64,000 nucleotides of DNA from Gavia stellata (lineage: Eukaryota > Chordata > Aves > Gaviiformes > Gaviidae), in NCBI RefSeq assembly GCF_030936135.1, contig NC_082595.1:64036716-64100715 (forward strand), written 5' to 3'. The notes below the pieces were generated by a model. The model saw only the letters and a program-made list of their open reading frames with translations, was not told the origin of the DNA and did no database searches. Every line of letters starts with the position of its first letter. Within the stretch, counting starts at the first letter, position 1. The position numbers and the translations under genes were made by a program. Positions 385 through 62,541 of this stretch are shown here, one piece after another.

Positions 385-3226
<2,842 letters not shown>

Positions 3227-36238: not shown

Positions 36239-36373
36239 CCCGCAGCCCCCCGGGGCCGGCGGCAGGCGCCTGCGCGCTGCGGCCGCCCGGTGCCGGCCCC
36301 GGAGCTGGCGCCGCCCGCAGCCTCCCGCCGGCTGCTGCCTATTTTAGACACAGCGGCGGCTCGGTGCCCGCGG
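36239..36373 (+). repeat. Shared promoter core, copy 1 (paired with 62310-62444)
   Basis: This 135-bp block aligns without gaps to 62310-62444 with only three mismatches: two adjacent to GGCGCCTGCGCG and one just after the CCTATTTTAG element. The flanking sequence on the left is unrelated. On the right a second, less perfect block follows and ends at the splice donor. Confidence 0.95.
36338..36347 (+). promoter_or_regulatory. CArG/TATA-like element in POPDC3 core promoter
   Basis: CCTATTTTAG fits the relaxed CArG pattern CC(A/T)7G recognised by MADS-box factors such as SRF, and also contains a TATA-like TATTTTA. It is the only AT-rich word in a GC-rich promoter core and is preserved exactly in the second island. 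Confidence 0.5.
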
Positions 36374-36480
36374 CGGGACGTGGTGCCGGGCGCGGTGTGG
36401 AGCGGCAGCCCGAGCCCTCCGCCGTCCCGCCCGGGCGGCCGGGAAACTTTTCCGAGGGCGCGGGAAGGGGCACGGGGCAG
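36365..36480 (+). other. POPDC3: POPDC3 inferred non-coding exon 1
   Basis: The 3' boundary is a consensus donor, CAG followed by GTAAGG at 36481. The 5' boundary is a guess, placed about 25-30 bases downstream of the TATA-like word. No ATG in this interval opens into the POPDC3 frame, so it would be 5' UTR. Confidence 0.5.
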
Positions 36481-39400
36481 GTAAGGGGCGCGGGCAGGGC
36501 GAGGGCCGGGCCGGGCCGTGCCAGGGCGGGCTGAAGCCCCGGCGCTGCCTCCGCCCGCCCCCCGCCGGCGCTGTCCAGTCAGGGAGCGCGGGGAGCGTCG
36601 CCCCGCTCTGCCGGGGGCGAGGGGGAACCGGGGCCGCCTCCCGCCCCGCTGCGCTCCGGCGACACCCGCTTCGGGCCCGGAGCGGCGGCGGGGACTGGCC
36701 GTCGGGGGAGGGCTGCCGCCCCGAGGGCTCGGCGGCGTCCTGGGCGGTGTGTGACGGGGAGTAACGTCGGGCGGGTCGGGGCACTCCCTGCCTTGGGAGG
36801 GGAGCGCTCCTCCCCAGCACGCCCCGCCGGTGCGGCCCGGCGGCGGTAACCGGAGCGCCCGAGTTCAGCCGCGGCTGGAAGTTGGAGCGCTTTACCGTGT
36901 GCCCTGTATGAAGGAGCGGGGCACGCTGCCCTGCGCTTCGCCCCGCGAGGGGCCTGTCTGAAGCGAGACTCTTCGTCATGTATCTCGGGTTTAGGGTTTA
37001 TTTCTTAGGAAAGCGTGGTTTCTGGTTTCTCCGCGGGTGCAGCTGCTGCCCGCTCACACAAGAGCTGACTCGGGGAGTATCTCTACTTTCGCAAAACCAA
37101 CTCGGGATCCGGGCATTTCTTCCACTGACTAGGGGCTTGCTTCATGGGCTGCCGTTATTTGATTCTTCTCTCTCCCCATCAACAAATGGTAAGAGCAGAT
37201 GAACGCTGAAATTAAGCTCTGGTTTTGCATTTGCAGTTGTTTCTTTCCAAAGATACAACAAATGATACAAAACACTTCTTTTCCCCGAACTATAATATTT
37301 TTTTTCCAAACTATAATATTTTACCACATTTTCTTCAGCTGTTCTGTAAAGCTTTGTGTGCATTTAGGCTGTCAATCACTTTATGGGCAAACATTTTATA
37401 TAGCTTGTAGTATTGAATCATGGACCACCTGGTAGTGTTATAAAGATGTCATTGATGAAATCTGGCTTCTAGAACTAGGGCTTCTTGCCACTCTGTTGAT
37501 TAATGGGAATATGATTGTATACATGCAAGTAAAAATGTCTTCACTGACCGCAGCAAAACAAGAAATGGTTTCCACATCTGCAGAACTGTTGCTGTTCAGG
37601 CTTTCCACAAAGTTCTGTGTGGTGCCAAATACTAAAGTAGCTTAAAATGCCAAGTTTTTTAAGAAATGCCTTGCCTGCAAAGTAGCAGGTACACCGCAAG
37701 TCCTGTAGCGAGGAGAACAGATACTGAAACGGAAGGAAAAGTTACGCAGGTAATTGTGATGGCAAAGTTTGTGGCAGGAAAACCTTTTATGATGAAAGGT
37801 GAGAACAGAAAGTTTATTAAGGATTCAAGAAAAGGATTGCTAGCTGAAGCTACAGTTAATCTTTTTATTAAGTGTGCAGGCTCTTCAGAGATGAGATTTT
37901 ATTTTATCATTCTAGTGTGTTCCACTGTCTTGTGAAAAAGAACTCTGATCAGTGTCGCCAGGTGATGATACAGTACCTGTAATTGGGCATGCCGCTGTTG
38001 CCCAAACAGAAGTCGGATATTGTACAGTCAACAAAGGCTCGGTTTGTGATTACATTATGTGATAAAACTAAGAGTATTCTGGCTCTCGTAGATAGAAAAC
38101 TAATGAAAGTGATGCTAAACCAGTGCCGTGTGCATGCTTCTGCCTGGCTGTTTTGTATGTAAAGCCCTGTGACACTCGTTTCAGTACAGCAGAGAGTAGA
38201 ACTGTACTTCTAACCCCAAACCCTCCAGTAAAGATAAATAATTTCAGCAGCTCCATTAGGGCATCCTCGCTACCTTTCACTGTGTTTAGCTCTGGTTTAG
38301 AGCTCACGGGGTACATAAATGTGGCGTTTCATGGCTCAGTGTTTATCTGTTTGAACACATGGCTCATGACACTGCTTCTCCATAATTCAGTTGTACATGC
38401 AGGGGTAGTGCAATGAACCAAGCCTCTGTGTTTTATTTCTTTTTTGGGAAATGAAGTTCACATCATGTGGTTGGTTTCATGGAAATACATTCCCATCCAA
38501 AGGCACTACTACATGTACAAACTGATTTAAGCTGAATTCTGCAGAGTTCAGCTGTAGTTCATTAACACAGTTTTAAAGTACTTGTGAAATATGCATTGCA
38601 GCTGTTTTATTATTAGATTAAAAGTGGAACTGTAGAAGTGCTTGAATTTGTGCTTCACCTTGCAGTATTTGTTACAAAATGCGATAAAACAGACCCCCTG
38701 GATTATTATTTGGCCAATGCTGTTCAATATACAAGAGCCTTGCTCAAATTTACCCAAGTGCTAGCAATCCATAGTTAGTTTAAAAAAAATGTCTGACTGT
38801 CATTCCATATTCATGTTTCCTAGGAGCAAAAGACCTTAAAAAAAGGAGAGAGGGCATTATTCTTCCTAGTTTGGCAGGAATACCACATGTACTTATGGTT
38901 CATCAGTTCTGATGCAAATTGGAAGAAAATCTGTAATTTTTTTTCATATCGGATACTGTCTAGATGATAAAATAGATAGCATCTTCAATACTGGCTTTGC
39001 AACCACAGAGGATTGCATTGTATATTTTACAGTGATAAATGAGGAATCGTTCAAGTACTGTAAGCTGTGTATAGTAAGCTGGTCTTTAAATATTTAAAGT
39101 CTAAATAATAGAGCTTCGCTGTATGCAGTGCTTCTAATGAACCTTAAACTATTCTGTATTGCTGTGGGTTTTCTTTCTCTCTTGATGCCTCCCCCCACCC
39201 AGCTTTTTTCCACTTCTTAAAAAGTTTAGTAGGAATTCGAGCAAAGTGTAAGTAGAATCAGGCCTTCCCAGCTGCAGCCAAACAAGCTCAATGAATCAAA
39301 AGTCCCATGAAAAGGCTCCTGTTAAAGCGCTCTGCTTTGGAGAAAGCAGTTCTGCATCTGCTGCAGCAGGGAGGCAGGAGTCAGGCCCAGCCTGGCGAGG

Positions 39401-42400
39401 AGGAGAACCCGTCGCCAGCCTCGTGCCGTTGGTGGGTCGTTCGCGTGGACCATTGAATTCAACGTAGAGGTGGCATTGGGGTGTCTACAGGGTTAGGCAG
39501 CAGCTGACTGAAGGGGGTTCTTGGTTGAACAACCTTGAACATGGGAGCCTAAATTCTGCCTGACCAGAGCAGGGGTTTGGCCCCGAAAAGTCCTGCTTGA
39601 CTGGTGGTTATTTCTCAGGGTTGCCCTGAAGGCAGTGAAGCACCACTGATGTCTGGATGTGCCCCAGCTGCTTGTTTTGTAGCTCTGAGCATTCCCAGAA
39701 GGATCGCTCTCCGAGAAGGTATCGCTTCACGTGGATGCTCTGGGTGTGGGGGTCCAATTTGGCAATTGCAGCCTGTGCAGCCCAGGGGGCTACTGGAAGG
39801 ACTGGGAAGGGTGTGGTTTGACCACTTTTCCGAAGGCCTGAGATGCTTTACCTTCCAAGTGAAAGCCTGCACTCAGATCCAGGGGGGTGAGACATAGCGA
39901 TGAGACATCAGTGAGACACAGGATGCCTTCCTCGAACCAAGGGAGTGCAAATCCGTCTTCCCTCCTCCCATGAGGGTGCCCCGAGTGACTCATTTTGACT
40001 CGTGTAGGAGGGTCACTTGTTGCCCTTCTTGTTGAAGCTGTGATGTGCAGAGAAGGAGACTGAGGGAGGGAGAACCGCGCTACAGTCGCTCTTCATCCTG
40101 CGATGGGGACGCTCACCCGGGAAGTGGCATCCTGAGGCTCGGCTGCCAGGGGTACATAACATGTTTCATGATAAAGCATTCATTGATAAAACAACCCTTT
40201 CTTTGAAAAACATTGGCAGGAAGGGATGCTGGCTCCACATGGATGAAGGCTTCTTCTGGAAGGTCTATAAGAGGAATAATTTCAGAACTATACCTGTCTT
40301 CAGTGTTTTCTGTTGTCTAAAGTAGCTGCTTAGTTGATATATGAGATAGGTTTCTAGATTTCATTGGGAAGACCAGCTACGTAACTTTCTAGGTATATAC
40401 AACTTTTTTATATTAAGTAACTTAAGACAAAAGTCCAGAAGATATCATTGCCATCATCTAATCTGACTTCCTGTAGAATAAAAAATAGAATCTTAGTAAA
40501 TCAATTCATTTTTTAATAATAGTATACCCAGATTTATCTCAGGTACCAGACAGCATCCTGACTTCCTTAATTCCCGGCAAAGGAAATCTTTAAAGCCATC
40601 CCCTTAATTAATTACCTTTGCTATGTATGCTTGTGTGACTTTGTAATCTGAATATATCTAGCTTTATAGTGACTGATTATCTTGATACCTTTGTCTTTTG
40701 GATTGGGTAGTCCTTTTCTTCCTCATCTTCCTGAGTAGATGTTACAGACTGTGATGAAGCTACTGTAGCCTTCTCTATGTTGTGCAGACTGCATTTTTCT
40801 GGGAAAAACATGTGTTTTCCGGTATTGTAATTACTGCTTTCTCTAGGATATAGTCTCAAGACATTTAAGGTAAGCTAGCTTGTGTTGTTAGTTACTATCC
40901 TAATCACTGCATGCATGTTTTGAGCCTGGAGTGGGTTCAAGGATAGTTTATCACTGAAAATAGCTTGTTTATCTGCCCATACATGCCTATAGGCACATAG
41001 CCATACCTCTCTGTAGGTGCATAGCTCCTCCGTGCACCAAGTTAGACACTGCATTGCAATTAAGAGTTTGGTTGTCTCGGTCCCTTGGGGTATCTAACGC
41101 CAAGTGAACAACTGCAGAAGGAAAGTAGCTTGGCGAAAGCGTGCTACGTGAAGAACCATTGCGAGCAAGAGGTGTCAGTAGGGAGGGAGACAGGATTTCA
41201 GAGACGTAGGGGCAATGGAAGGAAGGGGTATGTTAATCAACGTATGCATTTACATTGCACGTTAGAGGAAGTACTTGCTAATATTAAGAAGCAGCTTCTT
41301 TCTATACATCTAAATGATGGCCAGACCTGATGTAACTTGCCAGCCTAGATGGGTTGCTCAGAGCTCGTGCCTCTGGAAGTGGGGGGCGTTGAGGCCGGGA
41401 GGGCACCCCTTGGCTGGAGGGACCGCTTGGTTCCCGGCGGAGTTGCTGGAGCAGCTTCGCTGATTGCCGAGCCAAGCTGTGGCCGCTAGCTCATGTGTAA
41501 ACATCTACACTGTCGATGGCTAAAACCAGTGAGACAAATCCTGCTAAATCCAGCATAATCTCATTTTGTCATGTAAGCATATATGCTGTAAAGGAAAAAT
41601 CTTCCCTTTTGCTTCCAAACCTGTAGCAAACAATTCATCCAGGCTGGTTACATGATCAGCATGTACAACTCTATGGCCTGTCAACATGTACAGTGTGGAA
41701 GTGCTGTGGGCTTTCTGGCTGACTACTTGGGATAAGGCAACTAAACAACGGAGTATTCGAACTCTGAATAGCTTTACTTTTAACTTAATTAAAAAGGCCA
41801 AAGAGAGAACTGCTGGTGGCCTGAGGGCTTTTAGGGTTTATTTTTTGCGGGAATTGTTGTGCTCCAGACACAGTAACTAACACGCAAAGCTTCTTAGAGT
41901 TGAATTTGAGTCCTCAGTGACAAAAATGGGTTAAAGTACCCAGTTCTCAAGCAAATTAAAAAGGTATGTAATTGGTAATTCTTTATGGGAATACTACAGC
42001 GTATGGGGAAAATGCCCATTTGGGGAGGGGGAGGTTGTACTATGTGCATTTAAATTACAATATAAATTAGTTCTGTTTTGACTGTTTTAGTATACTGCTT
42101 ATAAAAAGTTTTAAGTTGCTGGCAGGTATTTATTTTGGAGAGTATAAGTGAAATACTCCATTTACTGCTTTGAAGCTCCAGCAAACTTGGTGGGTTTAAC
42201 ACTTTCTGATGACAGCTTAGTCCTTTCAGCAATGCTGTTATTTGTTTTAAGGAAGTTCATGCCGCTGTATATTGCTCACATCTCTAGTCTGGGCTGATTT
42301 TTCCCAGTGCTTGATCTGCTCCTGCTGGAAAGGGTGGGATCTGTGGTGGGGCAAAACACTGAGAAGCATCTCAGTAATTCCACCTGTGTTGGCAGGGCAT

Positions 42401-45400
42401 GTCTCCTTCCTGAGCTGGGAGGAGACCACTTCCATGCACCTCTGGCTCCGGCAGCCTACAGATGTCAATGTTGTGTTATTCTGAATACAGTAGACGCATA
42501 GCAGAGGCTGTGCTTGTGCGTGGTGCTCCTTCTTCTCTGTAGGCAGAGGACAGAGTAGAAAGTATTCAACATTTACTTGGGGAGGATACCGTTCTTCAGG
42601 CTTATAATTCAAGATAGCTGCTTTAAATGCAGTTTCCTGCTGAAGCATGCCTGATCACCACCATCAAATGAACCTGTAGTGATAACTGTTCGCCACAGCC
42701 CTGACGACTGAAGCAGGACATCAAACAAGGCCGCGTCAGTTGGCACGTTCCCTGTCCTGGTAGCTAAGAATGCTGAAGCATCTCGGTGAAAGGATGGTTT
42801 CCCCTTCAGCTGCTTACAAACTTGGTAATGCGGTGCTACTGTGGGCACTTGTAGACAGGTCCTCGGTGGAGGATGACTCACAGTTGATACCACATCTGTT
42901 TGGTTTTTTGCTTTGGGGGATTTTTCTCCCCCCCACCCCTGCTTGCAGTAGAGGAATGGCTTAATTAGAGTCACTGTTCTGAAGCCCTCAAGAGTTTAGA
43001 CTTTGGGCTTGTAGGAACTATAAAGAAATATATGAAAGACCTTATCCAGCACTAAATAACAATCAAAATTAGAAATTTTACTAAACTTGGGCCCATACAT
43101 ACTATTGTCTCTGCTCTATTTAATACTTTATAAAAAGACTACCGACAATTTTTAGCTCCCAAATCTCAGAATAATTTCCTCATTAAAAAGAGGTGAATCT
43201 TCTCTTTCTGTCTGCAGCTCACTGACAGCAACCATGCCTGCTCTTCACTGTAGCCCTGAGAAACCAGCTCCATTTAGTAGTAGGCTTTGTCAGTTATTTC
43301 CAGAGGGTTTGCTTTTGCCTGCACACCTTATGTAGCTCAGGAGAGTGTCATGTTGGTGAGGCTGTATTCTGTGCTAGCGCTGGCCTCCCTCCTTTGCCCT
43401 TCTTGCCCGGGTGGAGGGAGGCCCTCTCCAGCCTGGGTGATGATGTAGCACAGTAAAAGTTCTCATTGTGCGGAACTAATAAGTGGGAATTTTGCATATA
43501 GTGATTTTGGAAGACAGGTCCCATTCCAAAAATAAACAGTTACAAATACAGGACACTTTTTCCAGGGGGTTGGTTCTGTGTATGAGGACCCTCTATCTCT
43601 GTCCTAGTGGTGTGCTGTTCTTTCCAAATTATTTTGACCCATCTTGTTATGAGTAGATGTTTTACAGCAATGCTATGAGCTGTTGTGTGGGCAGACTGTG
43701 AACGCTATAAGCAATCTGGAAATTGAACATAAATTTTGTGAAATTATTGCAACATCATGTCAAATTATTGCGATGTGTGACTTTACATTATCAACATCTT
43801 TTTATCATGTAAAGTAGATTACAGTACAGATCCATGGTGTTTTTGTTTGTGGCATGCATACAGCTTCCCATGTAACTTCTCAGTCATTGTTCCATTCAAA
43901 ACGCTGAATTTTTTGCAGAAATTAGGGTCTTCATGAGAACTGCTCAGAGCAAAACATTGGCAATAGAGTAGAAGTATTAACAATAATCCAAAATCACTGT
44001 TGATTCTATTTAAAAAACCAAACAATCAAACAAAAAACTTCTGCCACCGATTTTTGACCATGCAGTGGAAATGCTGACTGGATTCAGAACACAAGGTCTG
44101 GGAACTGCATGTTCCAGTTTTATTTTCTTTTGGTTCAGAAATCTTACCCCTTGATCACCAGAAGTACTGCCTAAAATTCCTTATGCTCTAACCACACTTA
44201 GGTAACTTCTTTGTAGCTGACGCAGTTCTTATTTCCCATTCTCCAAGGGCTAAATCCTGTATCTGGGGGGAATCTGGTACCAGATAAGAGTATTTGGGTA
44301 AAAAGACAAACAGAAAAGCTTATAGTTACAAAGTACTTCATTCTTGTAATGCTGGTTCTTCCACTGCAGTAGGATAGCAAGCATTTTAATTTGGAGAGGT
44401 TCCGTGCTCTATAGCTGTGATATTTTTATGGGTCAGTGACTTCCCTATTGCCACTCCCAGAGGGGGAGAGCTTTCCCCCTAACCTTTTCTTCTGAACTCT
44501 GCTGCTCGGTTGTTTGGGATTTTATGTCTTCATTTATGAAGACACATTTATCATGTGTTTTTGAATCATGGAATTAATGTTGGGGCTTGAATAAACTTAA
44601 AAGAAGAAAAGCTGTAGCAGCTATGATATGACTTTGTTTTATTCATTTCTTAGACCTGTCACTGTAAAAAAAAACCACCACTGAAAGCCCTGCTGAATAA
44701 TGTTGGATGCTTCACTGCACCAGCAGTACTTTTTAAGTATTGACTTCTGTGGCTCTTGGGGGGGGGAGCTACCTTTGATATTCTAGAGAATCTAGTAATT
44801 TAGATAGCAAGATATTTCTTAGCTTCCCTGCTGTTTTACCAGGAAAAGAACTAAACAGTTAAAGACTTTTGTGGGTTTCAATCCTGATTACACTACTCAT
44901 AGACTCTGGCTTTGCAATTTCTACGATGCCTAATCTCACATTGAAGCGTGTATTTTTACTTTAAAAGACAGACATAGAAAGCTGGATTTGATTTTTTTAA
45001 ATTTATTTTGGTTTTTTCATGCTTTTCAGTTGTGTATTTTACGTTTTATTTAACTCTTAGGAATATAGTATCATATGGAAACAAATAGCATGTTTAACAT
45101 TTTACAGTGTTGAACAATGAAGTTATGTGGTCCATGGCATGAAATTATACAAGGTAGAACTTTGAATGTTATAAAATTGCTTTGTAAATGCCCTTTGAGA
45201 AGTGTTTTGCAGGACTACTTTCTTCTAATAACATAATCTGTATAAAGTTGCCTTTAAGCTTTGTAGTCTTCCTTAAACATGACAGCTTTTTGCCTGTCAT
45301 CCTTGGAGTAGAAACGACCATCCTGCCTGATACTTGGGTTTCCCTTATTGCGATGTTTGGGGATCTAGTTTATTGTCTCTGGGGACAGAAAGCAGCCTTG

Positions 45401-45872
45401 CTCAACTCCATTAGTGATAACAGAAAGGCAAAGGAGGGAAAGGAGAGTGGTTTGACAGAAATCCAGAGGGAGATAGAGGCGGTGAAGAAGGGACAAGAGT
45501 TCACTGCCTCTTCTCGTTCAAGAGCTAGGTAAGGGCATTAAATGAGACTCGCAGGCAGCAGGTTCAGGACCAAAAATGCAGCTACTTTCTCAGCAGTTAG
45601 GCTGTGGAAAGCCTTGTCCCAGGATGCTGTGGATGCGATGTACAGGTTTAAATGGATTCAGTGGCAATTCGACAGTTGCTACAGGGTTCATAGATACAGA
45701 AACATGATCTTCAATTGAAAGAGTATTAAGGTTTGATCCTGGAATCACAGGGCTACAAGGGGAATTGGATGATTGTAATGCAGTCTGTAGTTTTAGACAA
45801 TAAAAGGCTTTGATAGAATTTAATTGATGAAAATCATTTTATAAGTAATTCATCTTTTTTTCACTTGTCCAG
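36481..45872 (+). other. POPDC3: POPDC3 inferred intron 1
   Basis: About 9.4 kb from the donor at 36481 to a pyrimidine-rich acceptor (CTTTTTTTCACTTGTCCAG) ending at 45872. It contains an old CR1-like fragment near 45.4-45.7 kb and otherwise AT-rich DNA. Open frames such as 41085-41330, 42247-42648 (minus) and 45188-45532 show no recognisable protein. Additional alternative 5' exons are possible but not visible. Confidence 0.55.
45430..45735 (+). mobile_element. Old CR1-like LINE fragment
   Basis: AGGCAGCAGGTTCAGGACC, then TGTGGAAAGCCTTGTCCCAGG, ATGCTGTGGATGCGATGTAC and GGTTTAAATGGATTC follow the order of the 3' part of ORF2 in ancient CR1/L3-type elements (compare TGGAACTCCTTGCCACAGGATG). 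It is strongly diverged and truncated on both sides. It accounts for the open frame ending at 45532 near it. Confidence 0.65.
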
Positions 45873-46127
45873 ATCAGATGAAACTACAGATGACATGGCC
45901 AAAGTCAAGACAACGCATGAACTGATGAGAAACAGCATTGCCTTCTGAGAAGATTAGCCTCCTAGTTGCTGGAAACCCTAAGTGCAACTTTACTGCCAAA
46001 AGAGACCCTGACGTTATGTGATCATTGAGCAGAGTTTGCAAGAATGGAGAAGCAAAGGACCCTGCTAGCTGTATTGCATAAATAAAAATTTCCAAGACTC
46101 AGCCGAATCAAAAAAATTATTCCAGCC
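45873..46127 (+). other. POPDC3: POPDC3 5' UTR in exon 2, with upstream ORFs
   Basis: This is leader sequence between the inferred acceptor and the start codon. It contains at least four short upstream ORFs: 45878-45925 (15 codons), 45925-45948, a start-stop ATGTGA at 46016-46021, and 46044-46085 (13 codons). All terminate before the main ATG. The main start lies in a strong Kozak context (CCAGCCATGG), which may allow reinitiation. Another acceptor-like CAG lies directly before the ATG, so the exon could be shorter. Confidence 0.5.
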
Positions 46128-46618
46128 ATGGGAGAAAATGCAAGTTTTTGGGAAAGTTTGATATATGCACATCCTACTTGTACTACCTGGAAGCAAGAGG
46201 CAGAGGGATCTATCTACCACCTAGCCAGTATTCTCTTTGTTGTGGGCTTCATGGGTGGAAGTGGATTCTTTGGGCTTCTCTATGTCTTCAGCTTGCTTGG
46301 ACTGGGCTTTCTCTGCTCTTCTGTTTGGGCTTGGCTGGATGTCTGTGCTGCTGATATATTCTCCTGGAATTTTATACTGTTCGCTATATGCTTCGTCCAG
46401 TTCATTTATGTTACCTACCAAGTTCGGAGTGTTTCCTTTGACAGAGAATTCCAGGAGCTCTACAGTGCTCTCTTCCAGCCTCTGGGAATTTCCTTGACTG
46501 TCTATAGGAAGATCGTCTTGTGCTGCGATGCAGAAGTGGTTACCCTGGAGAAGGAACATTGTTATGCCATGCAGGGCAAAACACCTATTGATAAACTGTC
46601 CTTGCTTGTGTCAGGCAG
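46128..46618 (+). CDS. POPDC3: POPDC3 first coding exon
   Basis: This encodes residues 1-163 plus two bases of Arg164: the extracellular N-terminus, all three transmembrane segments (rich in FVVGFMGGSGFFGLLYVFS-type sequence) and the first part of the Popeye domain, ending at LSLLVSG. The donor is AG followed by GTTTGT at 46619, a weaker site than consensus. Read-through frames continue to 46703 but the match to the family stops at the donor. Confidence 0.95.
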
Positions 46619-49600
46619 GTTTGTATCCGTTTGTTCAGACTTACTGCAAATACCTTTTTTTTCTTTCTCCTTCTTGAAAATGAAAGCAAAAAAAAATCCC
46701 TAATTTGTGTATTGTTTGTTCATTTTCCAGTACAATAGATTAAATATTAATGCGAGTAATATAAATATTAATAGGCTAAATACACTTGTCTAGGACAGTA
46801 CTAGCGTAAAAACACTAAGCACAGAATCTGTAATAGCTTAAAGAAAAGGATTTTAAATCATTCTTCCAGACCACTGTAGCATAGCACTTCACAGGTTAGG
46901 CAGATAAAGGGAATAAATGTGTGCTTCAGTCTTCAGGCTATGGTTTGCTATCTATCTACTGCCTAGCTGATGAACACAGCATCTTTCTTATTTTTCTCTG
47001 CTAGTATCATCTAAAACATGACTAAAAGGTAGTTATGAGACTGAATATGCTGAGATAAACTCTGTTTAAAAGATATCTTGACTTCGACACAGATTGTATT
47101 TGGTTGCTTTCTCAGGGGTGGGAGAAGGGAGGGAGTAAGGGAGAGGAGAAGGCCCAAAAGCACCCTTCCATTACAAGGGGACATTGTTGAGCCCTATCAA
47201 GATTTGCAGAACTGAGTCTACAGTTACTGTATACTGTGGCCCTTAGACCCTGAGGCAATAAATCCACCTGCTTGTACTCTCTGCTTACTGGAGACCCTTC
47301 TGGCAACCTTGATGCTTTCCTGAAGGGAAATACTGGCTTTTGTACTGTGTACAAAGTGGTATACAGTACTGGACCACCACAAGAGTAGATGGGATACCCA
47401 GAGATGATGGCCATGGTCTGTCCTTGATGGGACACTTCGTAGGTGCATTTTGACAGCCTGCTGCATGGACAGATGGAATTTGTAAGCAGCTTGAAGCTCA
47501 GCTGATTTAGGACTACTTGCAACGAACAATATGGATTTTTCGGTAGTTGTCCCTAGTGACATCCTGGTTCAGAGCATTCTTGGGAGCTGTCAAGGAAGTA
47601 CCACGTGGAGGTTGCTTTTGGTCATAGTCATCCTGAAGGAGAGGTACCCATCCTTCTACATGCCCAGCCAGTTAGTAATCATGCAGGGAGTTCCTGCTAC
47701 CCTCCTTCGTGCAGTATAGGGCTGCTTCTTCTGATGTTGTAAGAAGCTTTAATCTCAGTGCAGAGCAGATGTAACAGAGGGACTCCTACAGCTTGCTTTT
47801 TTTCTTTTAGCTCATGAGGTTCAAGCATACATCTCCTGCTTGTGTGCCTTCAAACTTTAATATGATTTAAAAAGTAGAAAGAAAAATTTTCTTTGGCAGC
47901 TGCAGAAGGCCACACAGAGATCCCATACCTCCATGCTGTTCTCCTGGCTTCAGAGCTAGTCCTGTGGCCATGTAATTCCTGTTAACCGTTGAGAGAGCCC
48001 TACCTAACACATGCCATGGGGAACTCCTGCTTCCCAGTCCCTGCCTTTGCCACTTTGTTCCCTCTAAAATGCATATTTGCCAAACCTAGAAGTATATCCC
48101 ATGGCTTTTAAGTGAAGGAGGCAACCGGTGTTACGTGCATTGGTCTTTCACCTCTCCAGTGCAACCTGGCCTCTTCATGACAAAGCTTGCACTTTGCTGC
48201 ACGGACCTGCCCCAGAGAGAATAATATGACTTGAATAAGGCCTAGGAAGATTTCCATTTCAGTTGCGTGATTGTCTTGTGTTCTCTTTCAGCTGGCCTGA
48301 TCAAGTTGTGTTCAAAAATATGATTAGGATACTGTTGGCCAGTGATCGCTTTTTTTCTGCTCTCAGAGCTATATTTAAACTCCTCACATAGTAGGAATAA
48401 CACATTCTTGTTGCAGTCGTTGCTGCTGTACAGGTAGTACTAACAAATTAACACATCTTATCTTGGTAGGATCAGAGTGACAGTTGATGGGGAGTTTCTG
48501 CATTATATTTTTCCTCTTCAATTTCTGGATTCTCCTGAATGGGATTCACTGAGGCCCACAGAAGAGGGAATTTTCCAGGTAAAAGTAGAGGGTTTTTTTG
48601 AATACTACAGAAAACTGTTCAAGTACTAATTGGTAAACTTCATTTCGTTGTGGGTTTTGTTTGTGAAATAACACAAGTGGCATCCCAATATTTTGGGGAG
48701 GGAAGTCCTCTTTACCATTTATATCTTCTTTCTGTTTGCATCTTGTCGTTAGAATGAACTGGGTTTTTCTTAAAGCTAATCTGGGAGGTGGACTCTGCGT
48801 TCTTTGGCTGTGCTGAAGTCCAGCCCGGAGAAACCAGGGTTGCGGGAGGTGGGTGGAAGCTGGTGCTGAAGGGGCTTCCCTGTGGGAGGTGAACCAGAGA
48901 GCACAGGCTGGGGAGAGGCGTGCCTGTGGTACAGCTTGACATGGGGGGACAGCGTGGGACACAGTGTCCGTCTGGGCTGCCTCCTGTGACCCGTGAGCCC
49001 TCCCGCTGCCGTCACTTGACTGACGTGCTAGCTCCTGCGTGCATGGGATCTGATGTCTCGTGTCATGAGGGCAAAGGGCATTTCTCGAGAGCTTTCTTTA
49101 GACCCCCCTTTCCTGCTGGGGCTGCGGAGAGCGAAGCAGGGAGTGCAGGGCTGAGGCCGGGGCGCGCCATCAGTCTGCATCCAGGCTGGGGCTGCTGTTC
49201 AGCGTGGGCATAGGCATACTGTCACTGCGGCCGGCAAGATACAACCTTTCGGTCCGTTCCCAGTCACCCCTCTTGCTAGTCTTCGGCGTACAGTAGACCT
49301 CGCAGAGCTCTCTGGCTGGATTAAATGGCTTTAATTGCGGTAGTTACAAGGACAGGAGGTGTACGTTATGGACACAGCCTGCGTGCCTGCTCAGAGAGAG
49401 GGGGTTTTCTGAGCAAGGGCAGCAGCGGCAATATCACTGCCTTATAACCTAGCTAATTTTAATTTTCTGTTCTATAGGTAACACTTACAGCAGAGACAGA
49501 TTGTCGGTATGTGGCCTGGAGGAGAAAGAAGCTGTATCTGCTGTTTGCTAAACACCGTTTCATCTCCCGCCTGTTCTCAGTTTTAATTGGGAGCGACATT

Positions 49601-49798
49601 GCTGAAAAACTGTATGCCTTGAATGACAGAGTGCACGTGGGGAAAGGCTTTAGGTATGACATTCGGTTACCGAACTTCTACGACGTCTCGCTACCAGAGA
49701 CCCCTCCGGTGCAGCCCTCCCACCGCCTACAGCGAGGGTCCCCCCGGCGCAAGCCCGCGGGGGTTACAAACTGCGGCTCCTTGGGCACACAGTCCTAG
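46128..49798 (+). CDS. POPDC3: POPDC3, Popeye domain-containing protein 3
   Basis: POPDC3 is a membrane protein of heart and skeletal muscle whose cytosolic Popeye domain binds cAMP. The coding sequence joins 46128-46618, 48470-48578 and 49478-49798 (921 nt, 306 codons plus stop; the human protein is 291 residues). The order is a short extracellular N-terminus with an N-glycosylation sequon (Asn4), three membrane segments at about 31-47, 49-70 and 77-97, and the Popeye domain from about 100 to 260. The two family cAMP-binding signatures are present: DSPE (184-187, in FLDSPEW) and FQVT (199-202). The start was chosen for its Kozak context and match to the family N-terminus (CTTWKQEAEG). The C-terminal tail after NFY is Pro/Arg-rich and unlike the human tail. 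All splice sites are GT/AG and in phase. It looks functional. Confidence 0.96.
46619..48469 (+). other. POPDC3: POPDC3 intron between coding exons 1 and 2
   Basis: A 1851-bp phase-2 intron with a GTTTGT donor and a TATCTTGGTAG acceptor. A G-rich stretch at about 47115-47140 has four closely spaced runs of three or more G's and could form a G-quadruplex. The segment 47112-47562 is open on the minus strand in two overlapping frames without recognisable family. Confidence 0.9.
48470..48578 (+). CDS. POPDC3: POPDC3 second coding exon (cAMP-binding cassette)
   Basis: This 109-nt exon completes Arg164 and encodes residues 165-200: IRVTVDGEFLHYIF, then FLDSPEW and GIFQ. It carries the DSPE signature that contacts cAMP in Popeye proteins and the first half of the FQVT signature. 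The donor at 48579 is CAG followed by GTAAAA. Confidence 0.95.
48579..49477 (+). other. POPDC3: POPDC3 intron between coding exons 2 and 3
   Basis: An 899-bp phase-0 intron ending in TTCTGTTCTATAG. Its middle (about 48780-49300) is GC-richer and open on both strands, but no coding similarity is seen. Confidence 0.9.
49478..49798 (+). CDS. POPDC3: POPDC3 terminal coding exon
   Basis: This encodes residues 201-306: VTLTAETDCRY, WRRKKLYLLF, LFSVLIGSDIAEKLYALNDR and YDIRLPNFY, all family-typical, followed by a divergent tail of about 38 residues rich in Pro, Arg and Gly that ends at TAG (49796-49798). The tail-coding DNA is noticeably GC-rich compared with the rest of the gene. Confidence 0.94.
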   Translation, partial: VTLTAETDCRYVAWRRKKLYLLFAKHRFISRLFSVLIGSDIAEKLYALNDRVHVGKGFRYDIRLPNFYDVSLPETPPVQPSHRLQRGSPRRKPAGVTNCGSLGTQS

Positions 49799-50607: not shown

Positions 50608-52725
50608 TACTGCCAAACCACTGGAGTTTGTTTTACAATATCCTTTTTAGCCAGGTTTGTCAGGAAGTAACTAATGAAGAAACAGCCACAGCAATAAATA
50701 CAATTTTTAACCAAAACACTCTTGTTTAGCTTCCGGAGTCACTTCTCTGTGCCTGTGGAATTCTTGATTTAAAAGGTATTCTCTCCCTAATTCTGTGGTG
50801 TTTTAATGGCGTAAGGGAGCACCAGCTCACGCCTCGGTAGGAGAGAGTTGGTTTCGACCCTTGAGGTCACTGCGCCTTTGGGGAGAAGTGTCTGAATGTT
50901 TTTGCTAACTCACCTTCCTGCTGCTCTACCTGATGCCTGCCAGTAATCAAAAAATAAGAAGCATTACTATTTTATGAGACTGTATTGCTGCTTGATAGAT
51001 GTGGAGGTAGATCATATTTTTAATATTTTAAAATTGCTGGACTGTTTGGTAGGACAACCGTTGTGTGTTTGTGTATGTGCGGGTATACATATGCGTTTAG
51101 ATCTTGGAAGTTGTTGCTGGAGGACTTAAAATAATGATACAGCACCACGCTTGAAAGCTAATCATGCAGGATGTATAAGGATGCTATTAGAAGTGATATG
51201 AAACACCACCTGTTTGAAGGACTCTTCGGTGTAGAACAGATAACATTGTACAAGTTTTGCTTTTAGCTGTGGGTCCCTTTCTCAGAGACAAAAATCTGCC
51301 AAACATAAGTAGCATAGCATGCAATGTGATAATCCCCAAATCCTGCTAATAACCATTCCACATAATGTATTCTGTATGTATTACTTACTGTGTGAAGTCC
51401 CTGAGTCACAAAGCTACTGTGTCTTTGTCAAATGAGAATTGAAAAAATGCGAACAGAGAGTTCATTGATGGCTATTAAAGACCGGCCCAGGAAATAACGA
51501 AGGCACAAAGTGCTGGCAGCGTGTAGTAAGGATGTACAGCTGTGTGTGCCCTCTTCCTATACTTTTCACGGTTAAGGGACAGGATAGCAGGCTGCCTGAT
51601 CCCTTGGTATGACCTAGCACAGGTTTTCTCATGTAACTTCAGTGCTGTAGTTAGTATCATGCTTTACTTGTCGGTGATGCCCAGTGCCTGAGGCGGGTAA
51701 GAAGTGTGTCATCTCTTGTGGATGTGGTCACTTAGGCTGTGCCTCGTGTTCCCTGCTCTGCTTCACCTAGCCAAGCTGCTCCTGCTGACCGTGCCATGTG
51801 CTGAAAACCTCACTCTAGTTTTTAAGAGGTGAATCAAAAACAGCCCCCCATGTCATTTGATAAAATTTATCATGCTATAAAATGTGTTGGACCAGTATCA
51901 AGTTTATACTTGATGTTTTATGTGTTATCAGTCTACAAATGTAGAAAGATTATAGCCTAGAAACATAAAAAAGATCAATTAATGCTCTCCTCAGTTTTCT
52001 TCAATATATGGGCTTGTCCCATATGTTCACCTTTCCCTTAGGGTCAGCATTTAATAAACTAGTGTGATCATCTTCACCTTCAAAGTAAGACTAGGAGTTT
52101 TGCCCACCCAATTCCTGTATCAAGCTTATATATTCTATTTAAACTATAGCATACTGCTTAGAAAGATACCTGCTCTGGAGTGATGGGTGCTTCATTACAT
52201 ACTTAGGTATCGTCTTCATTAGTGGTGCATGCCTCAGTGTCAGCCTGGTTTCCAACCACAGTGCTCTGTGATGCTTTTCTCTGCTGGAATCAGTTACCAT
52301 CAGAAATATCTACTAGGACATGTCTGAGTCAATATCTGACCACACTCTTAGCTAATCTTGTTTAGCTTTTGCTACTGTGCTTTTTGGCCTTTGAGTCACT
52401 TTTTAAAAATCATTTCCAGTTTTCCAGCATCTGTTTGAGTCATGACTAGCAGAACATTTCAGTTTTGGAATTCAGGGCATATATAGCTACAGTAATATAA
52501 GTACACACAAAAGAACTGGAAGCGAGACAGCAAGCCCTTTCCACCCCTGGTATTTTTTTTAATCTTGACAGCACTTCTAAAATGTGCTGTAAAATACGCT
52601 CTGGTATGTGACTCATAAACCAATGTTTTAGGAGAGCTGTATAATCTACCTAAGTAAAGACAGACTCAGACTGATGTCAGTGAAATAATACCATCTTTTA
52701 TGATATCATATATACCCAGTCATTA

Positions 52726-53120
52726 GAGAGTTGGGGTTGTTCAGCCTGGAGAAGAGAAGGCTCCGGGGAGACCTTATTGCAGCCTTTCAGTACTTAAAGG
52801 GTGCTTATAAAAAAGATGGGGACAGACTTTTTAGTAAGGCCTCTAGTGATAGGACAAGGGGTAATGGTTTTAAACTAAAAGAGGGTAGATTCAGACTAGA
52901 GGTAAGGAAGAAATTTTTTATGATGAGGGTGGTGAAACACTAGAAGAAGTTGCCCAGAGAGGCGGTAGATGCCCCATCCCTGGAAACATTCAGGGTCAGG
53001 TTGGACAGGGCTCTGAGCAACCTGATCGAGTTGAAGATGTCCCTGCTCATTGCAGGGGCGTTGGGCTAGATGGCCTTTAAAGGTCCCTTCCAACCCAAAC
53101 CATTCTATGATTCTATGATT
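52726..53120 (+). mobile_element. CR1 LINE, 3' end (different subfamily)
   Basis: A 5'-truncated CR1 beginning in the ORF2 C-terminal block ([16 protein letters not shown]) and ending in GGTCCCTTCCAACCCAAACC with the tail ATTCTATGATTCTATGATT. The tail (CTATG instead of CTGTG) and 3' UTR differ from the 6148 and 16675 copies. An in-frame TAG at about 52942 (after RVVKH) interrupts the frame, so it is inactive. Confidence 0.92.
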
Positions 53121-55484: not shown

Positions 55485-55565
55485 GTGCCTTAGGCTGAGA
55501 AAGACACTGAAGCCGCAAGTCCCATTTCATGGATAAATGCTCTAACTATGTCATTGTATAGAAGT
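55485..55565 (-). repeat. Possible tRNA-like SINE remnant, minus orientation
   Basis: On the minus strand this reads ATAGTTAGAGCATTTATCC, then AAATGGGACTTGCGGCTTC, resembling the TGGTTAGAGCAC head of old tRNA-derived SINEs. A very diverged candidate. Confidence 0.28.
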
Positions 55566-56599
55566 GGGCAGCACCATCACCTTCTGTAGAAACCATACGT
55601 CATGGGTGAGCGTCAAAGCATCTCAGATCCGTGAAAGGAGGTGGGTGGGTCCCTGTGCCCAGGCAGGGATTCTGGCTGGATGACCCCAAGTAGCTGGTGG
55701 CCTGCGGGAGCCAGGGCTCGGTGGGTGAGGCACACATCTCTGTTTAGCGTTTCCCATGTGTAGGTTTTAGTGACTCCTAAGAAGCGTACAGGACAATATA
55801 GATACCCAGCACTGGGTTTGGACTTCCAGGGGCCAAATGTAGGGCATGGCTCCAAGGGTGGGATACCGGCAGGTAAGCTACGGGATGGGTTTAAAACACA
55901 TTGGATAGGACCCTGTATCTTCCCATATGCCTTCTCTTACACTGAGGTAAACACAAAATAACTCATCCCATAACAAAAGTGAGGCAAGCAAGTTCACATC
56001 TGCTAGGATGCATGAGGATGAGTATCAGCAGTTATCATAAAGTAGCTGGAAATCTTTACTGCGCTTTGTTCATTTAACTCATCCATGTTAAAATCCTTAA
56101 AATCTTTAGTGAATCCAGTTGTAGCAGATGTTCTATTTTACTAAGAGATTTAGCTTAGATAAAATATTTTTTGTATGAAGGAAAACTGTCCTGTTTTCAT
56201 TTACAGAAAGGTCAGGTCCTCTCAGACAACCTTTTGAAGCAGATCACCCTAGTGAGGTGAATGGATTTACTTCTTAAAAACCAGTCACACAGCACCGCGC
56301 TCTGGTTTTTACTGGCTCTCCATTTTCTTGTTGGGTTATGGCTTTTCAAAAACATAGTGTCCTTTCAGTATATATGTTCATATTTTAAAGAACTAAGGAG
56401 TAATTATTAGTAGGAAAAAATACAATAAATACTGATATTCTGAAATCAGGTATGGAACATAAAACATTTTTATACTGGTTTTGGTTTTACAAATTATTAG
56501 TACTTTTCTCTTTACCATAGTCATTGCCGTTTTAGTTCTGAAACTGTTTATACAGTGGTATGTGTACTTATGCTAATACTACATGCAAAAGCAATAATC

Positions 56600-56612
56600 A
56601 TATATATATATA
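56600..56612. repeat. (AT)n microsatellite
   Basis: A short run of alternating A and T in AT-rich DNA. Confidence 0.85.
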
Positions 56613-57498
56613 TTATCTGTATGCCTATTGTGGTCTGTATCCCTGTTTTTAACCCTATATAGTAGGGTTTTGTTTGTTGCTTTTTTCTTTACTGAACAAA
56701 GAAGTGTAATAAACATTCTTCAGAAGGCTGGTCTTATTTATTCATTGAAATTAGAGGATTTTTTTTTTTTAATTCTGTGTTTGTCTTTACTCTCACAGAT
56801 CACTCAAACAGTAGCAAGAAGCAGTTGAGGTATAATATAACGCTGCATACATTTTGATAGTCATTTACAATACGCACAGCTGATGTCCAGCATCTGGACG
56901 TACAAAGCAGCATAGTTGAGGTGGACAGTAAATGTGGACCAGACGTTCCTTAGCGATTGTTTGATGCTGACTCTTTGAAATGGTAGAGGAAGCAGCTAAT
57001 CCAGAAATTAGGTGCTTATTATCTCCTTAAGGGTTGTGCTCAAAACAAGGAGTATTTCAAAGACTCTTATTTAGGACTGCTAATTTGATCAAGTGCATGA
57101 AATGCTCCTGCTTGATACTTGGGCTACATCAACCCATTTCTGTGCATTTGGACCAGACTTCTGCATTCCTGGTTTGCTTTTTGCTCTTGAACTTTTGTTC
57201 CTAACATTTATTTTGGCTTACTTTCTTCCCCAGTATGTTCCTTCATGGAATGATCCATTTTCTCCCCACTCTTGCTCTCTTCTCTCTGTGTCTTTTTGCA
57301 AAGAAAAAATTAACTTTAAAAAAGCTACCTCATGCCTCTATTTACCTTTTCTTCCCCCTCAGAGTGTGGAGTATTTTCACTCTCAAATCCTACATGCGTT
57401 CTCTGCTGTTTGTTTAAATAGTTGCGTAGACTCATCTTCTGCCTCCCTCCACTTCCTCTTTGTCCTCATTCCTCAAGTTTTTAAGTTAGATTTTTTGA

Positions 57499-57517
57499 TT
57501 TTTTTTTTTTTTTTTTT
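57499..57517. repeat. Poly(T) tract
   Basis: Nineteen consecutive T's within a T/C-rich stretch that keeps the 57093-57578 frame open. No retroelement body was recognised next to it. Confidence 0.9.
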
Positions 57518-60309
57518 AGTTCTGTCTGCCCTTCTGGGTATGTTAAACACTTGTTATTTAGTTCCTATTTTATCTTGAAATAAAATTCTAAATCCTTATC
57601 AATAATTTTAAAAATTCCTAGAAGATAGTAGTTTTCAATGATGCTAATGTGCAAAGTGCTGGAGATCCAGGCCTAGCCTTCGCTTCTCAAAAACAGCCAC
57701 TGGTGAATATTAAAATGCACAGCTAAACAGGACTAATATTGCAACAAATCATTAATCGCTATTCTACCAACACCAAAAAGCACGCGTACATTTATACCCT
57801 GACAATATTTGCAATTCCTTTCGCTCATACAGACAGTCACATAGGCTCTCACAAATTGACAAAGATCTCTGCAGAGAAAACATCATGAGCTGCGGTTGAG
57901 ATGGATTTACTTCAGGATTAGCACAGACATCTTTGCGTGATCATTTTGAACTTTCTTTGTGCATGGAAGTTGTCCAAAAAGGGAACAGAGAAATCACAGC
58001 CAGTTCAACCAGCGCTGCCAAATCCGCTGTCGCGGGGACCCCTAAGAAATGGGCTGTCGCCCAGCGAGGGGACAGATGCAATGCAAAAGCACTGCTTTAT
58101 TTCTTGTCTTCCAATTATGCATGAAGTAAGAGCTGCCTCACATTAACCGAGAGCAACATGTTGATAGCAAATTGAGTCCTGGACAAGCGATGCAGTCAAA
58201 ACCCATCTTCGGTACTCCTCTTACTCCTCTATTTCCAGAAACAAGCAGACCCGTTGGGGACAGGCTCTTCGTTATTCCCTGCCACCGTTAGCAAGCTGCC
58301 CCGGCGGGGCCGTGACAGGTGCACCGTGACCCTGGCCTTAGGAAATCCAATCGGTTTTATAGCAGCTCTCCTTTTTTTTTTTTGGGAGCCATGTGATTTC
58401 GGTAGAGCAAGAGCAAGCAGAGCAGACCCTTCCAGCAGCAGTCTCAGGAAACGCGCTTGCGAGCAGCTCGTAGGCTTGCTTTTATATTCATAAAATCGTT
58501 CACGGAGCAATTTCAAATAATGAACATACAAATTAAACTGTCAGCAGGAGACGGCTCACGCATAATTCAGGAACAGGGATAATTGCTAAGTGTAATTGAA
58601 TAAATTGTTTACTGTGCACAGTTTAGATAACTTCAATAGCAAACAATTTTACTCTGCCCTTACACCTCAGGATTGCGTACCCTTTGCATAAACATCTACG
58701 ACAATCTGTTAAAACTTGGATACTTCGACAGATCATTTCAGAAGAAAGTTGGCTCCTGGCTCTAAGTTTGCAACAACCAATTTTGCAACAAACAAACCAA
58801 TTACAACCAATATCAGTCAGACACTTGAAAGCCCCAGGATACGATGTTTTATATCTTCCATTCAAAGGAGGTTCACAAATAGATAGCCCTTCTTGTATAA
58901 GCAGGAGACACCCTCCCTGCAGAAGCGGCATGGAAAAAATTGCCAGACTATATTGCGATACATCAGAAAGTGCCCGTCAGAAGGTCTGAGGTAAAAATGC
59001 ACCAGAATGCACACTCCTCTTAAATAAGCCTCCAGAATATTACAGAGCGGAGAGAGTATTTGTCATTCACAACCTCTTCCATACAAACTTCCTTCTAATA
59101 AAATGTAATTCTTGAGGATGCTTTCAGGTAAACCCCAAACAGATATTTTTTTCTGTGGAAAATATGTGTAATTTTTCAGTTATATGGCACATAATTTCAG
59201 CATCTGGGATGGGATTTGTCTCAGTGAAATGTGGCACTTCTGAACTATGCCAGCATATTTCATCCCACTCCAGACAGTTGTCAAACACACAGAGGATTAA
59301 TTACTTTCTAAAAGAGCCCCCTTGCATTGTCTATAGAGAGAGTTTAAAAGATTAGTTTAGAGTAGACATCTTTTAGCCTGTAGATGCTGAGTACGCTTCC
59401 TGAAACTGTAAATGGAAACATTTCATAGATCTCACCATTGTCTGAAAATAGCCCTGTCAGCCTGGCACATCTGGGATCCCGACTGCAAAGCATTTGTTCT
59501 CTTTAGTGAAAACTTTGCCTAAAAAAGGCTGCGAAATCGGGCTCTCGTTTGGAAGACACAGAGCGCTTGCAATTTTACAAAAAGTTATTTTATCATCTGC
59601 TTAATAAAGTCTTTCAATGCCTGGCTAGGCTGAACTGAGAAGCAGGAGAGGGAGGCTCTGGTCTCAGCTGTGCTTCTGAACTCCTGCCTGACGTCCGCTG
59701 AGCAGCATCTCCCCGCATCGTCAGCGGGCCTTAACTTCCCCTCTAGTACAGAAGAACAGCCAGGCACCAACATGTTGGGGTATACTATCGAAGATGACAA
59801 AGCCGGTCGATGGAGATAAGGAACAAGACTGAGCAATTTACAACATCCATGTGACGTTTTCTACTGTGGACCATTACTGTGGAAAATAACTAAATAACTG
59901 GAGAAAGTACTTAAGCTATCAAGACTTTAATAGCAAGAGAGAGAAACACGACAGAGGGAAAGCCTGCATCAATGCACAGCTGTAACACCGTTAGACCTGT
60001 TTCTGCTAACAAAATGCATCAAGCCAAAACAAATCTCTAAAAATGGAGCTGGCTATTTGAAGCCAAATCCTCATCAATGTAGATGCAAACAGTTTTTATT
60101 TCTTGCCTTTGTCAGATTAATTTACATTAGCAGATTTCAGTGAACTTGTGCTTGGTTAACCCAAGTCTTTACGGTGGTTTAACAGTAGGACATTAAACTG
60201 ATTTAATTAAACCAGCCCATTCTTCTACAGTACACGAGACCGTGGTTTAAGAGAATAAACTGTACTTAATACATTCTACTTAGAGAACGTTTATGTTAGC
60301 TATATAACT

Positions 60310-60327
60310 ATAGATAACGTTATCTAT
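60310..60327. promoter_or_regulatory. Perfect palindrome of paired GATA motifs
   Basis: ATAGATAACGTTATCTAT is a perfect 18-bp palindrome made of two convergent AGATAA sites, followed at 60329 by a further TTATCT. It lies about 2 kb upstream of the inferred BVES promoter. GATA factors act in heart, so it is a candidate binding cluster. The surrounding AT-richness means chance is possible. Confidence 0.35.
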
Positions 60328-62266
60328 GTTATCTAATATTGTATATGTAACTAAAAGTTATGTAAAATTATGGCCATTAATATCTGCCTAGGGCTATGTG
60401 CTATTATTTATATAAAATTGATGCTAGTCATTCTATTAGAGAAAGGAAGATTTTTCTTCTACATGCGAGTACACCCCACAGCACAAGACTAGAGCCCATC
60501 AGAGCCATGTCTATACTCTTCATCTGCTTATGGTCCTCCTGAAAGGACCAGGAGATAGGGGCAGCTCTCAGATCCTCCCTTACTTCCCTCTTTCTGCTGA
60601 CAGCTGTACTAGATACCACCATCTATGACAGCCATGTAGCCTTGGTTCTTACCCCTCTGCTGCGCAGGGGAAATCACATTAAATCACCAATATACTGAAA
60701 TACAAAGATTCCAAGGGACTAGCTGCAATCAGGACAAAGTTCTACACCTTCACATGGCTGCAAATATTATTAGTTCATTGCCACGCTTTCCTAACGAGGA
60801 TTTTCGACATTGGGCCAAGCAGATACTGTTTATCACCAAGGCTCCCCATAAAAACTGAGAAGACCTGGAGGGTAATGAGAGAAGTACAAAGACTCTATAT
60901 AAAGACACAACTAGTACAACAAACTGTGCTTCTCCAATGCATAACATTCAGTAACGTGCTAGAAAATGCTTACATGCCAGTCTAGATTTGGATAGGAACT
61001 CTCTGACAGGCTGCTTTGTGCTGCTTTTGGAAGCTACTTGGCTTTGCTCCAGCAAGCATAGCTGAATATTATCAATCTCAAACACGTGCTAGATGCTATC
61101 TCTCATGACCGCTCCTGTGGCCGTGCTATCCTGACTTGCTCTTCCTACCCATTTTCCAGCTCACTTACTCTGCGTATCTCAGGAAACAGCGAATACATCC
61201 ACAAGAATGACTGGCCGATCAGAGGAAACGCGGTACCAAATCACGTCCCTCATAATAAATTCATAATATATTTTGGAAAATCAGGTCTTATACCAGGCAG
61301 CAGGATTCATAAAAACCCTATTCACATGGCACACGTTACTGGAAAGGTCCAGATCTCTTGCCCAAGATGTAAAGCTAAGAACAACCGTAACAAAGATGGA
61401 CCCTCCTGGGACACATGTTGATGTGTACGTGTATAAGCAGTTACTTCAAAAATGATTCCGGATTCTGTATTGTTCTTTCCAAAAATATTTAAGTATAATC
61501 CTGACCATATGCTCTCGGCTGCTGAAAAAAAACCCAACCCACTTTGTAGCTAGCTCATCAGAATGTATTGAAAGAGATTTTCTGCCTTTGCAGTCCCCAT
61601 TTATCGCTGACAGTCAGGTTTCGGGATGGGCTGGGATGCCCGTAGGCTGTATCTGCGATGCCTTTCATCGCTGGATGATGCACATCGGCATCCCGCAGAT
61701 AAAGGCAGGCTTGGTGGCTACTTTGCCCATCCTGCAAGACTGGCGGTGCAGGAGAGGGCTAGACAGGACATCGGCAGAGCAATCTGCTGACACACAGGGA
61801 CGCAAGCGGTGCTTTGGAAGCACGTCATTTCTGGGAGCCGTCAAACTGCCACACGAGCAAACTCGGTGACATTTCTTAAACATTATGCTTGTGACAAAGC
61901 AACCACAGCAGGTGCCAAGTTGAGGAGAGCAGTTTCATAAAGGCTATTGTGGCTCCTTGACTCACCATATAGGGGAAATACTGCTTGCCGCTCGTTTAGA
62001 AGAATTCAGCTCCTCTAATTTTAACCAGCAAGAAGCGAGGCGTGTTGCCTAAGCGCTGGGTTCACTCTACAGTGAATGGAGGCATCTCTGGGGGGTGATT
62101 CACCCCACGTGCTTTAGATGCCTCAGCTGGGTGCTGCTCAGCACTCACAGGCTTCAAATTGAGAGGGAATATTCGGAGGTGATGCTTATAGTCAAAGGGG
62201 GGCACGGAGAACAGGGCCGCCTCCCAAACCGCTGGCCCCTCATACCCCCGCCCCGCCCCGCGCACC

Positions 62267-62284
62267 GCACCGCCCCCTGGCGGC
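62267..62284 (-). promoter_or_regulatory. CTCF-like motif
   Basis: On the minus strand this reads GCCGCCAGGGGGCGGTGC, a good match to the CTCF core (CCASYAGRKGGC). It lies about 25 bases before the shared promoter core. I did not see an equivalent next to the POPDC3 copy. Confidence 0.45.
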
Positions 62285-62309
62285 CGGGCCTCGCCCGGCG
62301 GCCTCGCCG

Positions 62310-62444
62310 CCCGCAGCCCCCCGGGGCCGGCCGGAGGCGCCTGCGCGCTGCGGCCGCCCGGTGCCGGCCCCGGAGCTGGCGCCGCCCGCAGCCTCCCGCC
62401 GGCTGCTGCCTATTTTAGTCACAGCGGCGGCTCGGTGCCCGCGG
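62310..62444 (+). repeat. Shared promoter core, copy 2 (paired with 36239-36373)
   Basis: Gapless partner of 36239-36373 with three mismatches in 135 bp, at an offset of 26071. The left flank differs completely from copy 1. A second shared block ends at the donor at 62542, with a net 10-base length difference between copies. Confidence 0.95.
62409..62418 (+). promoter_or_regulatory. CArG/TATA-like element in inferred BVES promoter
   Basis: CCTATTTTAG, identical in sequence and relative position to the element at 36338. The base two positions after it differs (T then C here, A then C in the other copy). Confidence 0.5.
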
Positions 62445-62541
62445 TGCCGGGAGCGGCAGCCTGTCCTCGTCCTGCCCGGGCGCGGAGTCCTCCGGCCGGC
62501 TGGGAAACTTTTGCCAGGGCGCGGGCAGGGGCACGGGGCAG
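62436..62541 (+). other. BVES: BVES inferred non-coding exon 1
   Basis: The 3' boundary is the donor GGCAG followed by GTAAGGGGCG at 62542, identical over more than 20 bases to the POPDC3 exon 1 donor. The 5' boundary is estimated from the TATA-like word. No coding start that would fit BVES is present. Confidence 0.45.

Follow-up and report, generated by a model that had tools for sequence, protein, structure and literature searches.

A near-identical promoter and first-exon unit shared by the linked paralogues POPDC3 and BVES of Gavia stellata, probably maintained by gene conversion under constraint

The linked paralogues POPDC3 and BVES of Gavia stellata are each preceded by an almost identical stretch of 135 nt, which probably belongs to an inherited promoter and exon-1 unit that has been kept under constraint and re-homogenised by interlocus gene conversion. 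Both copies are located in the 64,000-nt stretch of DNA analysed here (the window), inside CpG islands which, as the initial annotation had described them, are 26 kb apart; these islands have 75-79% GC, extend over about 35.9-37.0 kb and 62.2-63.0 kb, and are in direct orientation. The similarity of the two cores is far beyond chance and is longer than the 135 bp first noticed. In addition, the core of one bird copy is closer to its paralogue than either bird copy is to the corresponding sequence of another animal, which speaks more for conversion acting on a promoter under constraint than for constraint by itself.

Extent and borders of the shared unit

The two cores (36239-36373 and 62310-62444) align without gaps and are identical at 132 of 135 positions, which bears out the earlier report of three mismatches. 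These are all transversions, at 36261 (G/C), 36263 (C/G), and 36348 (A/T), and, as far as three sites allow GC-bias to be weighed, they are GC-neutral. A repeat finder returned, unprompted, the same 135-nt pair (98%) and a second block further downstream in both islands (92%), and blastn joins both blocks in one collinear match (36239-36491 versus 62310-62552, 83.7% over 258 columns, E 1e-76). The GT of a shared splice donor, CAG/GTAAGGGGCGC, lies inside the second block, at 36481 and 62542. The shared unit therefore looks like a core promoter followed by a non-coding exon 1 and its donor, with a presumed start site, and the homology, which the initial annotation had limited to the core, continues through this putative exon 1 up to the predicted donor. 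A chance match in GC-rich DNA was ruled out by the identity of the cores, by the blastn E-value, and by shuffle tests. Outside the unit, the 200-bp left flanks score like shuffled sequences (119 of 500 shuffles reach the observed score), in agreement with the earlier statement that they are unrelated, and the same holds for the 200-bp right flanks (440 of 500). The ungapped blocks are separated by an indel-rich spacer of 57 nt in POPDC3 and 47 nt in BVES. A good-looking alignment of the spacer (pieces of 69 and 59 nt) was not counted as homology because it is only marginal, its score being reached by 217 of 5000 shuffles and by 412 of 14040 same-sized pairs from the islands. Of separate note, C/G swaps two bases apart occur at 36261/36263 and again at 36452/36454 with their BVES partners; each pair of swaps can also be read as the gain of one base and the loss of another, with the spacing preserved.

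The first core has a GC content of 0.83 and contains 22 CpG. Both cores hold the element CCTATTTTAG, presumably a TATA or CArG-like motif. Searching the 1.32-Gb assembly with the 135-bp core matched two places, which are these two islands, and searching it with the 243-bp BVES tract likewise matched two; these counts are lower bounds, since very common words are skipped in the search. A common or interspersed repeat, which the initial annotation had named as an outcome that would undo its reading, was therefore rejected. No third copy of the core was found genome-wide by this search, which is blind to a diverged copy, for instance at POPDC2. A known structured RNA was also rejected, since nowhere in the window does an Rfam family reach its gathering score, and a 20-base word of the core returned no match in collections of viral and prokaryote contigs, as expected there.

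Genes of the window and beyond

The coordinates of the features are collected in Table 1. POPDC3 is encoded on the plus strand downstream of the first island, and its first coding exon scores above the curated cut-off of PF04831 while the last exon, taken alone, falls below it. Among the best 120 of 505 related proteins, the top-ranked one is the avian POPDC3 of Nyctibius bracteatus (96%), which, together with the CR1-like repeat family of the window, agrees with a bird genome; part of the first coding exon returned no solved structure at E 0.001. The gene upstream of POPDC3 is PREP, of which two exons were detected with a human PREP protein sequence as probe. The window stops short of the BVES coding sequence, which was searched for in a further 40 kb of the same contig. 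In these extended coordinates, BVES coding matches start on the plus strand at 68020, 71389, 82283, 83405, 85471, 89381, and 96985, the first being preceded by a pyrimidine-rich acceptor and located 5.5 kb past the BVES donor block. Since these matches lie just past the window and on the plus strand, the second island is by position the predicted BVES promoter; the assignment of the cores to POPDC3 and, by synteny, to BVES, as proposed earlier, thus agrees with the coding exons of both genes.

Table 1. Positions of the shared unit and of neighbouring coding exons in the window.
Feature	Position	Strand	Evidence or remark
PREP, two exons, gene upstream of POPDC3	406-582, 2909-3220 (406..3220)	+	tblastn 83% and 87.5%
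Core copy 1, putative core promoter of POPDC3, probably with the start of exon 1	36239..36373	+	132/135 to copy 2
CCTATTTTAG, TATA/CArG-like, identical in both copies	36338..36347	+	sequence; putative function
Spacer, indel-rich, probably 5' UTR, diverged between copies	36374..36430	+	alignment
Second block (92%): predicted POPDC3 exon 1 end, donor CAG/GTAAG, 11 nt of intron 1	36431..36491	+	exon structure predicted from sequence
POPDC3 first coding exon, ATG to donor	46128..46618	+	PF04831 2.5e-40; tblastn; donor read from sequence
POPDC3 second coding exon	48470..48578	+	tblastn; acceptor and donor read from sequence
POPDC3 last coding exon	49478..49798	+	tblastn 84%; PF04831 5.4e-05
Core copy 2, putative BVES core promoter	62310..62444	+	132/135 to copy 1
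BVES counterpart of the spacer	62445..62491	+	alignment
Predicted BVES exon 1 end, donor, 11 nt of intron 1	62492..62552	+	predicted from sequence

Age of the gene pair

Over 86 codons from two exons, the coding sequences of POPDC3 and BVES share 137 of 258 bases, 34 of 86 third positions, and 35 of 86 residues. Near-identical 5' non-coding DNA (132/135) lies here beside diverged coding DNA, one of the features by which gene conversion between paralogous 5' regions is recognised. A rough date for the core was set aside: the avian substitution rate is near 2e-9 per site per year, at which 3 differences in 135 correspond to about 5-6 million years, and the region is constrained, so this value is not used. 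According to the accessible part of PMC4918794, the duplication that gave rise to the pair seems older than chordates, and the accessible part of PMC10100218 reports that promoter similarity of human and mouse paralogues is usually low and declines with age. Given the diverged coding DNA, this old duplication, and the usually low similarity of paralogous promoters, a core identity of 98% is far higher than paralogues of this age would lead one to expect, and the earlier remark that it is notable for paralogues separated so early holds.

Comparison with an outgroup sequence

On the minus strand, a frame of 354 codons stays open through the POPDC3 island (35803-36864), which let promoter DNA be compared by way of a protein database. 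Such open antisense frames most likely arise simply from high GC content. With this frame as query, the protein search reports a single match at E <=0.01 among 4614 candidates, P0121 (E 9e-4 in a very large database), which comprises 278 residues and comes from a 7239-base contig of another animal; the plus-strand frame of the island returned nothing at E 0.01. P0121 aligns to the minus strand of the window at 37057-36662, 36578-36405, and 36426-36238 (joint E 9e-51), and its matches to BVES fall inside the shared tract, save one weak match (E 3). Because it follows the POPDC3 island from intron 1 into the core and matches BVES only within the tract, P0121 is most likely a fortuitous translation of the orthologous POPDC3 island in another animal.

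Within the core, 41 codons (36363-36241) can be compared in all three sequences, P0121 being available as protein, so that its synonymous differences are unseen; the counts exclude the spacer as well as five codons at and beyond the left edge of the core. The minimum number of base differences is at least 7 between POPDC3 and P0121 and at least 6 between BVES and P0121, against 3 between the two bird copies, and hence in the core the paralogues are closer than the orthologues, as seen with one outgroup sequence, at the protein level, and at few sites. Still, 34 of the 41 residues are common to P0121 and the POPDC3 copy of the window. The odd one out is P0121 in five codons, POPDC3 in two, and BVES in one, while a tree by gene would make BVES odd most often. 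The probability that BVES is odd in at most one of eight codons amounts to 0.195, 0.035, 0.0085, and 0.0026 for BVES-odd shares of 1/3, 1/2, 0.6, and 2/3, respectively, these shares being assumptions, so that significance depends on the tree assumed. For equal shares, the probability that P0121 is odd in at least five of eight is 0.088. Under a Poisson model, three or fewer differences have a probability of 0.082 when 7 are expected, the case in which the paralogues are merely as old as the orthologue split, of 0.010 when 10 are expected, and of 0.0005 when 14 are expected. A fast-evolving P0121 lineage would mimic this pattern.

The end of exon 1 leans the other way. In the 18 codons shown, BVES is odd in three, P0121 in two, and POPDC3 in none, the direction expected by gene, and the 15 codons summed by script give two for BVES and one for P0121. 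A conversion tract of limited length would give such a difference between core and exon end, which in these small samples is not significant (Fisher p 0.22). Lastly, the left edge of the match between the paralogues falls about where clear similarity to P0121 ends, which suggests that constraint shapes the borders of the unit, and the persistence of a recognisable core in P0121 suggests that constraint acts on the core as well.

Origin of the near-identity

Three causes had been offered for the paired cores, namely recent conversion, a recent promoter duplication, and strong constraint, and the comparison with P0121 (3 differences against at least 7 and at least 6) separates them in part: it favours conversion or a recent copy and speaks against constraint as the sole cause, although constraint does appear to act. 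We consider it less likely than conversion that a promoter and exon-1 piece of about 250 bp was recently duplicated once in this lineage and became the first exon of the other gene. Such copying would leave sharp left and right edges between unrelated flanks, both blocks and the donor common to the copies in conserved order, and the same three-way pattern with paralogues closer than orthologues, all of which are seen. However, P0121 carries the POPDC3 copy, which makes this copy old, and BVES would then be the recipient; the piece would have had to arrive in the correct orientation and with a working donor upstream of the BVES coding exons, the searches of the assembly turned up no other copy, and the exon-end block (92%) is more diverged than the core (98%). 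If the recipient already possessed a homologous unit, the event would amount to conversion.

Constraint by itself, by which each gene would have preserved nearly every base of the core from the pre-chordate duplication onwards owing to the same promoter and start-site needs, is less probable still. The conservation of the core in P0121, the TATA/CArG-like element common to both copies, and a conserved-variable-conserved layout that tracks functional borders are what it predicts, but so is a similarity of orthologues at least equal to that of paralogues, and the core shows the reverse, at few sites; moreover, promoters of old paralogues are usually little alike in human and mouse, as far as the accessible part of PMC10100218 goes. 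In short, the borders fit constraint alone and the distances do not. That one GC-rich promoter was filled with the sequence of the other during assembly is very improbable. Islands of 75-79% GC can be poorly assembled, but a copied patch does not account for the three mismatches, the divergence of the spacer, the lower identity of the second block (92%), or the distinct flanks; P0121 independently has the core at POPDC3, and the window is free of N bases.

Gene conversion on a constrained promoter is the most probable of these readings, and the following course may be proposed for it. POPDC3 and BVES would have arisen by tandem duplication before chordates (PMC4918794, accessible part), and a substrate for pairing would have been preserved because both the core promoter and the donor of exon 1 were under constraint, as the conservation in P0121 suggests. 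In the zebra finch, where PRDM9 is absent, recombination is enriched at CpG islands (PMC12047795, accessible part), which makes meiotic breaks in these islands a reasonable source of events. Some of the breaks, in the lineage of this bird, would have been repaired from the paralogous island 26 kb away in direct orientation, so that the core became uniform again and the spacer and flanks were left to drift; homogenisation within the lineage is what the greater closeness of the paralogues points to. According to the same source, non-crossover tracts in zebra finch average about 32 bp. The core exceeds this length, so a single event of the ordinary kind would be insufficient and repeated events would be needed.

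Known systems and implications

The closest precedent is the BGW element in the 5' UTR of the BEX, WEX, and GASP genes, located at Xq22 in placental mammals, for which interlocus gene conversion was invoked (Winter and Ponting 2005, PMC1274310, accessible part). As described there, a GC-rich first non-coding exon is nearly alike among genes whose proteins have diverged, paralogues are more similar than orthologues (in the present case with one outgroup sequence and at the protein level), and the genes are chimaeric in their history, as those of POPDC3 and BVES may be. In contrast, BGW is found in a cluster of more than 20 genes and is backed by trees that cover human, mouse, rat, and dog, whereas POPDC3 and BVES are one tandem pair in a bird, much older as pre-chordate paralogues and with weaker phylogenetic support, and their near-identity peaks in the presumed core promoter. 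The pair would be one more case of the BGW type, now in a bird and with far older paralogues. Concerted evolution of avian MHC class II genes, as far as the sources accessible describe it, resembles the present case in that linked bird duplicates are homogenised and differs in that it concerns genes of an immune family, while here promoter and 5' UTR are alike and the compared coding exons far diverged. Recombination directed to CpG islands in birds without PRDM9 offers a likely source of breaks, but the accessible part of PMC12047795 concerns allelic events and does not treat conversion between paralogues. In a search with most subscription literature outside its scope, no paper on gene conversion at the POPDC3 and BVES promoters was found, and the promoter pair is not described in the accessible text of the matches listed, nor in that of the POPDC reviews PMC6726836 and PMC6952887.

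If this reading is right, the promoter and coding parts of one gene differ in their history. Paralogous promoters normally diverge fast, and an old pair with a near-identical core suggests a promoter history separate from that of the coding sequence. With a core in common, the two muscle genes probably have similar promoter activity, as predicted from the sequence. It is conceivable, though we put this forward only tentatively, that in birds and other animals without PRDM9 the promoters of linked paralogues are homogenised time and again by meiotic breaks in their CpG islands. POPDC3 and BVES would then be one visible instance of a general concerted evolution confined to promoters, through which old duplicates could stay co-expressed. 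The pair is well suited to asking whether recombination directed to CpG islands converts promoters in birds, and whether such conversion preserves the co-regulation of POPDC3 and BVES, which are both active in muscle. In practice, short reads, ChIP, and methylation probes may confuse the two promoters.

Two further features of the window lie outside the islands. A perfect CCCTT pentamer array occupies 26063-26211 (29.8 copies, 100% match), and an interspersed repeat is present at 6148-6548 and 16675-17075. These two copies lie 10.5 kb from each other in the same orientation and are 90% identical over 401 bases; a third, weaker one is located at 52725-52995, and we take this three-copy family to be CR1-like.
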